Shown here: positions 16,871 through 59,744 of the stretch, piece after piece | How the letters are laid out: every line of letters begins with the position of its first letter | How positions within the stretch are numbered: the stretch's first letter is position 1 | NCBI RefSeq assembly: GCF_029238675.1 | Contig: NZ_JAQWFR010000005.1 | Location: forward strand, 1 to 64,000 | Length of the DNA: 64,000 nt | Direction of reading: 5' to 3' | Origin: Oceanicoccus sp. | Lineage (GTDB): Bacteria > Pseudomonadota > Gammaproteobacteria > Pseudomonadales > Dasaniaceae | Notes under the pieces: generated by a model | Database searches by the model: none | Told to the model about the DNA's origin: nothing | Seen by the model: the letters and a program-made list of their open reading frames with translations, nothing else | Made by a program: the position numbers and the translations under genes

Positions 16871-16923
16871 GTAGGGTGGATTGTAATCCACCGCTGTTGA
16901 AGGTGGATTACAATCCACCCTAC
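16871..16923. repeat. REP-like palindrome
   Basis: GTAGGGTGGATTGTAATCCACC-gctgttgaa-GGTGGATTACAATCCACCCTAC; related copy at 58343-58368. Confidence 0.9.
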
Positions 16924-57379: not shown

Positions 57380-57703
57380 GTGAAAAAAATTATCTCTAAA
57401 GCCGATATTCGTAATGATATGGAAAAACAAATTGCCGACTTCCTTAAAAAAGGCGGCGAGGTGGCGGAAATTGAACGGGGAATTAGTGGCAGGGAAAATC
57501 CCAACGGGCCATTAAAGCCCGACGGCACTGCTTTTCAACAACCCAAACAAGGCCGCACTTATGTACCTGAGGTGATTGCTGCCATTGATGCACGGCGCAA
57601 TAAGAAGCTGGAAAAACCCAAGCCCAGTATTCGCCGGCCGCGAAAGAAAATTATTTATGATGATTTTGGTGAACCATTGCGCGAAGTTTGGGTGGATGAG
57701 TAA
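57380..57703 (+). CDS. hypothetical protein
   Basis: 107 aa lysine-rich ORF; KKIIYDDFGEPLREVWVDE; no family recognised with certainty. Confidence 0.7.
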   Translation: MKKIISKADIRNDMEKQIADFLKKGGEVAEIERGISGRENPNGPLKPDGTAFQQPKQGRTYVPEVIAAIDARRNKKLEKPKPSIRRPRKKIIYDDFGEPLREVWVDE

Positions 57704-57818: not shown

Positions 57819-57892
57819 AACTATTCCCTAACTATTCCCTAACTATTCCCTAACTATTCCCTAACTATTCCCAACCATCCCCAACCATCCCT
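57819..57892. repeat. short tandem repeat, 11-bp unit AACTATTCCCT, degenerating into 10-bp AACCATCCC(C/T) units
   Basis: About five 11-bp units followed by two degenerate units, read directly. Confidence 0.95.
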
Positions 57893-57975
57893 AAATCGCC
57901 ACTGCTCGAGACAAGTGACTAAAAATCTCACTTTTTTTCACAAATAGACTTGCGAGATAAACAAAGCCCACTAAA

Positions 57976-58009
57976 CTGTATAGTTATACAGTACTGGTCA
58001 TTGATACAG
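57976..58009. promoter_or_regulatory. two LexA-type (CTG-N10-CAG) SOS boxes
   Basis: CTGTATAGTTATACAG at 57976-57991 (perfect arms) and CTGGTCATTGATACAG at 57994-58009. Confidence 0.75.
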
Positions 58010-58072
58010 ACATGCTGATCGATACAGTACTTACCTGATTTATTAAACCGAACAGAAAACAGCAGAGAGAAG

Positions 58073-58333
58073 ATGATGATGAACTCAGCCAGCAACAGCG
58101 TATTTACCCAGGTCGACTACCGTCAGTTTCGCCAGCACCTCGCGGATATCACCACTAATGCCGTTAAGGGTAAAGGTTACGAAACAGCCATCTATGACCG
58201 CAAAGGTGATATTCAGGCGATTGTTCACGCCGCCTCTATTGATACCAACGGCCGCTGCTACCCTGCGGAATACTTTATTCGCACATCGGCTATACCGGCT
58301 GTTGCTGAACTTGATTGGCAATACGCCGCTTAA
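58073..58333 (+). CDS. small hypothetical protein, putatively SOS-regulated
   Basis: 86-aa ORF with AGAGAGAAG upstream of ATGATGATG; downstream of the LexA-type boxes. Confidence 0.75.
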   Translation: MMMNSASNSVFTQVDYRQFRQHLADITTNAVKGKGYETAIYDRKGDIQAIVHAASIDTNGRCYPAEYFIRTSAIPAVAELDWQYAA

Positions 58334-58342
58334 CTCCCTCCT

Positions 58343-58368
58343 GTAGGGTGGATTGCAATCCACCCTAC
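58343..58368. repeat. REP-like palindrome
   Basis: GTAGGGTGGATTGCAATCCACCCTAC, perfect palindrome related to 16871-16923. Confidence 0.9.
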
Positions 58369-58439: not shown

Positions 58440-58724
58440 ATGTATGTATTCTCCGTCAATGCCCGCACCCCCAAAGCTTTAGAAGGTTTTGCCAAAGGCG
58501 CTGAAGTACCCTTTATTATCTATATCAATTTCAAAGACCTGTTTGGTGCCGAGCAACTGTGCCAGATTTATTTAAAACAACAGGGCTTTGAAAGACCCGC
58601 GATTGAAAAAAGAAAATTGATTGAAGATAAATTTCTTGTTGACCAAAAACTCATTGCAGCCGACCCAGCCCTGAAAGAAGCGCTATCTACTGGTTACTCT
58701 ATTCAAATCTTTAGCTCCCACTAA
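58440..58724 (+). CDS. hypothetical protein
   Basis: MYVFSVNARTPKALEGFAKGAEVPFIIYINFKDLFGAEQLCQIYLKQQGF; the in-frame extension back to 58353 starts inside the REP repeat and is unlikely. Confidence 0.7.
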   Translation: MYVFSVNARTPKALEGFAKGAEVPFIIYINFKDLFGAEQLCQIYLKQQGFERPAIEKRKLIEDKFLVDQKLIAADPALKEALSTGYSIQIFSSH

Positions 58725-58733
58725 AACAATACC

Positions 58734-59744
58734 ATGACCTTACAGCATTGCATTATCCACCAGATAGAGCGCCCGGTGCCCGGCGCTGATGTCACTACTA
58801 CTCTGCGCGACGAAGAAAACAGCAGCTCCGGCCCTGCCTATTCGCTGTTTGAGCAACTCAAGCAAAGCTACCAGCGCAGCAGCCAAAAACAGTACGGTCA
58901 TTTTGATAGTGAGCAAACCGATAACCCGGTGCCGGGTTGGTTGCAGGAACAACAGCAGGGTAAGTCACCTTTTGCCAGGACAACGCAACGGTTGTTAGAG
59001 CATTTGCAGCAAAAAATGGGCGACAATGACGAGGCTTTTTCTGCCCATATTCTATTTGCGCTGGAAACGGTAATGGACCAGGAGCAGCTGTATATTTTTT
59101 GGTTTAACCATGTTGAAGCTGCCCATATTGATAACACCCTGGATATAGCACCCACGCAATATATCGACAGTAATAAAATACTCTACGGAGCACGTCTGTT
59201 TATTGAAGAGTGGTTAGAAGAAGATTCGCAAAAATATCTTTCAATGATTACCAGCCGTGGTAATAAAAACTTAAGTGATACCTTCAGTGCCTTTCTTGGT
59301 TTTTCTACCGGCCTTGATCTGGTGGTTGAAACCAGTGAGTTCTTAACCATTGTTGACGACTATGCACAATCACTACCTGAAGAAAAAGTCACCGATTATA
59401 AAGGTAAAATTCTCGACTACTGTGTTGAGCAAGATAAGCAAGGGGCACCGGTTGTGTTTGAAGATATTTCCACACAACTGAACGAGCAACAACCCAAAGA
59501 ATTTGCTGAATTTGTCTCTTCCAAACAAGAATCCCCCAAGGCAGAAATCTATACCGACCGAGGCAGTTTAAAGCGCTATGTGCGTTATTTTGGTCGCGAT
59601 AAGAATATGAGTATCAGCTTTTCTGCTGATATGTTCGGCCAGAATATCGTCTATGACGAAGCCTCCGGCACTTTAACTATTAAAGAGATTCCCAAGTCCT
59701 TAAAACAGCAGTTGAAAAACTCTAATAAGCCAACAAAGGAATGA
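58734..59744 (+). CDS. nucleoid-associated protein (NdpA/YejK family)
   Basis: 336 aa; IHQIERPV...VFEDISTQLNEQQPKEFAEFV. Confidence 0.88.
   Translation: MTLQHCIIHQIERPVPGADVTTTLRDEENSSSGPAYSLFEQLKQSYQRSSQKQYGHFDSEQTDNPVPGWLQEQQQGKSPFARTTQRLLEHLQQKMGDNDEAFSAHILFALETVMDQEQLYIFWFNHVEAAHIDNTLDIAPTQYIDSNKILYGARLFIEEWLEEDSQKYLSMITSRGNKNLSDTFSAFLGFSTGLDLVVETSEFLTIVDDYAQSLPEEKVTDYKGKILDYCVEQDKQGAPVVFEDISTQLNEQQPKEFAEFVSSKQESPKAEIYTDRGSLKRYVRYFGRDKNMSISFSADMFGQNIVYDEASGTLTIKEIPKSLKQQLKNSNKPTKE

Follow-up and report, generated by a model that had tools for sequence, protein, structure and literature searches.

A small, conserved gene preceded by LexA boxes in the Pseudomonadales: a candidate SOS effector that might stand in for SulA

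SulA (PF03846) is a LexA-controlled inhibitor of FtsZ which is degraded by Lon. LexA-controlled small proteins are an already known kind; DinI, YebG and PsiB are small SOS- or RecA-related proteins without an enzymatic domain, with DinI having a C-terminal acidic helix. Across lineages, the SOS division inhibitors are largely unrelated in sequence and several of them are restrained by proteolysis, which acts at the C-terminus to control both YneA and SosA (PMC6851548). The small damage-response protein DdrR is reported to be unique to Acinetobacter (PMC11332147). The gene described here lies in a 64-kb stretch of Oceanicoccus sp. DNA (the window, i.e. the whole stretch that was analysed) and encodes a protein of 86 aa behind an array of LexA boxes.

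The reading frame runs from 58073 to 58333 on the forward strand and translates into the 86-aa protein given in the first-pass annotation. The true start is more likely the second of three ATGs, at 58076, because the closest homolog begins with MKNSASN, and the purine-rich cagagag at 58063-58069 on the same strand is the probable Shine-Dalgarno sequence. The core of the family is an ungapped domain of 63 residues (residues 9-71 of the window protein, 58097-58285), in which F, T, G and Y are invariant. No significant match to the protein was retrieved from Pfam, NCBIfam, PHROG, PADLOC or the PDB sequences; a likeness of residues 59-76 to DUF1482 was discarded as it did not reach the cut-off (E 0.2). 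No membrane segment was seen in the family. AlphaFold predicts the same beta-alpha-beta-beta-beta-beta topology for the window protein (pLDDT 73) and its Dasania homolog (pLDDT 79). Foldseek gave no credible PDB fold match for either model, a comparison which is limited by the moderate model confidence and the shallow alignments, and no description of the family was found in the open-licence papers searched. Judging by these sources, neither the family nor its fold seems to have been described.

Of 392 Pseudomonadales genomes searched, 33 carry a homolog, and these genomes are spread over seven families of the order; as the number of candidates scored in each genome was capped, strongly diverged members may have escaped the search. 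In the home family, 10 of the 11 genomes carry a homolog, the exception being a MAG that is 64% complete. The carriers include HTCC2143, Dasania, other Spongiibacteraceae and a MAG of the same species. In family f13, one genus has long variants of about 154-196 aa, nearly all of which end in WTTxRLTA or a close version of it (L135, L136, L016, L040-L043, L046 and L047). Beyond the order, neither the remaining members of the class nor those of the phylum yielded a convincing homolog. Weak matches outside the order (G678, G445 and G449) are without a LexA box and align only partially, and were treated as chance. Searches among viral contigs, phage records and plasmid records did not yield any sequence homologs either. 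The gene had initially been called an orphan, which holds in the sense that no database family covers it, but it is not an isolated ORFan, as it belongs to a family conserved in 33 genomes.

The chromosomal neighbours of the gene are unremarkable. No conserved partner gene or two-gene operon was found, the downstream genes varying among genomes. The upstream gene (57380-57703) encodes a protein with a SutA RNA-polymerase-binding domain (PF20661, E 3e-12), and a similar gene lies upstream in HTCC2143. At 58441-59744, a conserved pair of genes encodes a 94-aa protein starting with MYVFSVNAR and then a 37-kD nucleoid-associated protein (PF04245, YejK/NdpA); several relatives have this pair close to the SOS gene. 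In two other families, a small gene with a motif of the WF-x-T-x-x-G-P-F type, which we take to resemble DUF6316, lies downstream on the same strand (L016:761-1003, L138:3450-3719, L038:975-1259) and is a possible partner of the homologs in those families. The region also contains an 11-bp tandem repeat, AACTATTCCCT, with 7.2 copies at 57819-57894, just 5' of the SOS promoter, which was not seen upstream of the copies in relatives. A palindrome, GGGTGGATTGCAATCCACCC, is found 3' of the gene (58346-58365), with near copies at 16874-16893 and 16901-16920 and more of them near the G006 copy; it is a predicted REP-like element.

Upstream of the gene, a near-ideal LexA box had been noted at 57976, followed 18 bp later by a weaker one. 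Both are present on the forward strand: box 1, CTGTATAGTTATACAG, is an exact CTGT-N8-ACAG at 57976-57991, and the weaker box 2, CTGGTCATTGATACAG, is located at 57994-58009, 18 bp further from start to start. The description as two tandem boxes missed a weak third site, ATGCTGATCGATACAG, at 58012-58027 on the same strand, again 18 bp beyond box 2 and in the same register, with a poor left arm and an intact right arm ATACAG. Tandem Repeats Finder reports the box array as a repeat with an 18-bp period (57986-58031). When six genomes from the genus are aligned, the three box sites are the best-conserved upstream columns: the site of box 1 is conserved, box 2 is kept in five of the six and degraded in G002, and the third-box columns ATG...ATACAG are kept in all six. 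No other LexA site in the window is as strong as box 1, which is also the sole exact instance of CTGT-N8-ACAG. As 0.57 instances are expected in 64 kb, the bare pattern is not significant by itself; the 20-mer of box 1 with its flanks is expected 0.02 times in the window and was found once.

Box 1 overlaps a putative promoter on the forward strand, with TTGCGA as -35 element (57950-57955) and TAAACT as -10 element (57972-57977), the last two bases of which are the first two of the box. The corresponding pattern TTG-N19-TANNCTG, where the CTG of the box overlaps the -10 hexamer behind a spacer of exactly 16 bp, lies upstream of 24 of 29 homologs, versus 0.13 expected from shuffling. Moreover, several homologs have a second box within the -35/-10 spacer. 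A box overlapping the predicted promoter in this way is a classical steric-occlusion operator.

The host genome encodes one LexA (G000:C26:89070-89264, E 1.6e-29), and every genome tested has a single LexA. The promoter of the host lexA (L081, G000:C26) carries two boxes, at L081:1528 and 1546, with the same spacing of 18 bp as at the small gene. Good boxes are also located upstream of genes which, based on their translated starts, we take to be radA, umuD and dinB, and one box lies in the interval adjoining grpE, where recN is expected and presumably located, judged by position only. In the host genome, the LexA pattern is enriched, with 35 sites versus 11 for the reversed control. Based on these boxes and this enrichment, the LexA motif of the lineage is the canonical gammaproteobacterial one.

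Boxes were scored at the homologs by requiring at least 12 of 16 positions matching the consensus and one intact CTG/CAG end. They were found upstream of 27 of 30 homologs, with 53 sites versus 0.58 in dinucleotide shuffles. The remaining three homologs, all from one genus, have an exact CTGT-N8-ACAG with the sequence CTGTACGCAAACACAG at the promoter overlap, and three loci that were found later have paired boxes too. Conservation of the boxes at orthologs, which had been suggested as a check on the original claim, is thereby seen for all 33 homologs examined. When the 18-19 kb surrounding four of the homologs were scanned at each locus (about 75 kb in all), only one other site of at least 12/16 was found. 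Two or more boxes per homolog are the rule. They lie 18 bp apart in the home genus and 15 bp apart in f13, where the two boxes share one base, while others have them 31 or 49 bp apart; that several operators are kept while the spacing drifts suggests selection for tight repression. With a motif-matching operator at the promoter, a canonical LexA, operators conserved at orthologs and boxes at known SOS genes, the LexA control proposed at the outset is strongly supported, and the gene is almost certainly a member of the LexA regulon.

The protein ends in Ala-Ala (codons at 58325-58330, forward strand), a putative ssrA-like degron in view of the homolog tails and of the host tmRNA tag, ANDDNYGAQLAA, which ends in AQLAA. 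Among related and thus not independent sequences, a C-terminal Ala is present in 22 of 26 complete homologs versus 13 of 98 other proteins of the same genomes, and a C-terminal AA in 14 of 26 versus 3 of 98. The sequence between the core and this Ala aligns poorly among homologs. Some members are without the Ala tail, such as G123, which ends in ...SLND, and the -RAV/-RSV ends of f11 are loosely degron-like at most. The tails look like the end of the host ssrA tag and show the small hydrophobic, Ala-Ala end of an ssrA-like C-degron. Both ssrA and the LexA fragment are established cases of such tails feeding ClpXP. The degron of LexA is discussed in PMC5742171. Regulated proteolysis through the tail is a reasonably probable property of the new protein, with degradation itself being what we infer from the C-terminal residues.

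No match to PF03846 was found in the 86-aa protein or in the host genome, nor was a sulA found adjoining lexA in the host genome, and a SulA structure is not among the PDB fold matches listed for the family models. Only two weak SulA matches were obtained in the 33 carriers, one of them below the curated cut-off and in a 306-aa frame, versus 157 in 351 non-carriers. The carriers are without a convincing SulA. The p-value of this anticorrelation (4e-6) is overstated, since the carriers are clustered in seven families, and many non-carriers are without SulA as well. Because of this clustering by family, the association is only suggestive.

Several operators, a probable degron and the lack of a partner gene, of phage or plasmid copies and of a membrane segment are compatible with a protein that regulates the host cell potently and is short-lived. 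Based on this profile and on the distribution of SulA, we favour an SOS effector which is repressed by LexA and kept short-lived by proteolysis, most likely a brake on division or the cell cycle standing in for SulA, with a probability of about 0.42. LexA bound to box 1 would mask the start site along with the -10 hexamer, and repression would be tightened by boxes 2 and 3, which lie early in the transcribed sequence. Upon DNA damage, the small protein would be switched on and, taking the role of SulA, would bind and inhibit a cell-cycle target, with the division machinery as the likeliest one. Through its -AA tail, the protein would be degraded by ClpXP or a similar protease, which would end the arrest once LexA returns. 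Arrest of division or of the cell cycle is a tentative assignment, in which both the activity and the target are presumed. It is doubtful whether the family represents a new SOS checkpoint protein that is found across the lineage, has a fold absent from solved structures, took over from SulA in some of the Pseudomonadales and is removed by way of a tail mimicking ssrA.

Against a brake, no sequence or fold homology to any division inhibitor was found, and the tight repression and the degron would fit a modulator of RecA, LexA or polymerase equally well. The roles originally offered, i.e. division inhibitor, repair modulator or toxin, are inseparable by sequence; a brake on division or the cell cycle, itself a putative role, is the most economical of them. 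A type II toxin is unlikely in view of the lack of a conserved partner gene and the absence from plasmid and phage records. The main rival, itself rather unlikely, is a small SOS-induced modulator of RecA, LexA or UmuD which tunes the response itself, comparable to DinI and PsiB acting on RecA or DdrR acting with UmuDAb. The size, the single gene, the tight LexA control and the lack of a membrane segment would suit such a protein, and the umuD of the host genome has a box. A precedent in the wider group is the small damage-response corepressor DdrR of Acinetobacter (PMC11332147). However, solved SOS proteins give neither a sequence nor a fold match, and the family is found in seven families of the order only.

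The best viral fold matches are small uncharacterised phage proteins, with Bacillus phage AR9 A0A172JHR9 on top (TM 0.62, rmsd 1.8, prob 1.00), which would suit a domesticated small phage protein employed during SOS, e.g. one directed against prophage induction or an inhibitor of the host-takeover type. The E-values of these fold matches are about 1e-3 or weaker, though, and as neither viral contigs, phages nor plasmids contain a sequence homolog, the neighbours are unremarkable and no significant PADLOC match exists, a phage-derived or phage-directed effector is improbable. More improbable still is a protein of Phd/YefM-like fold acting as an orphan antitoxin or as an autoregulator that binds DNA: the idea arose from a likeness in sequence pattern (YRQFRQHLAD..AIYDRKGDIQAIV) and from an hhalign match to P1 Phd/YefM that is in register but weak (P 0.011, probability 4%), but the AlphaFold topology differs and there is no conserved toxin neighbour. 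Several Phd/YefM structures have been solved and none is among the PDB fold matches listed; the antitoxin family PF02604 was rejected, as there is no Pfam match and the AlphaFold/Foldseek topology differs. That the boxes stand by chance before an unrelated housekeeping ORF, as the expected number of bare sites in the window might allow, has a negligible probability because boxes are conserved upstream of all the homologs examined, together with the promoter overlap.

Regardless of its exact role, the gene is an apparently undescribed, conserved member of the SOS regulon in a large marine gammaproteobacterial group, whose carriers have no recognisable SulA. If the favoured reading as a division brake during DNA repair is true, the family would be another independent solution to the same checkpoint. 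As a modulator of RecA, LexA or polymerase, it would be a new entry point to damage tolerance and mutagenesis. Both readings provide a precise, testable hypothesis for a protein annotated in none of the databases searched.

Compared with SulA, which occurs in other families of the same order, the new protein is likewise LexA-repressed (as predicted), small and without a membrane segment, and a rapid turnover is proposed for it as well. Unlike SulA, to which it has no sequence similarity and no fold match, its gene is not beside lexA and its tail looks like a ClpXP-type signal rather than the Lon signal of SulA. DinI, YebG and PsiB were not matched by the protein in the Pfam, NCBIfam and PDB searches, and its predicted fold is without the C-terminal acidic helix of DinI. 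As a lineage-specific small protein with probable SOS induction, it resembles SidA/DidA, YneA, SosA and DivS, but these have a membrane segment whereas the new family shows none. It also resembles DdrR of Acinetobacter in being a small damage-response protein, a comparison based on its published description; DdrR acts with UmuDAb in a genus without LexA, whereas the new gene lies under canonical LexA boxes.
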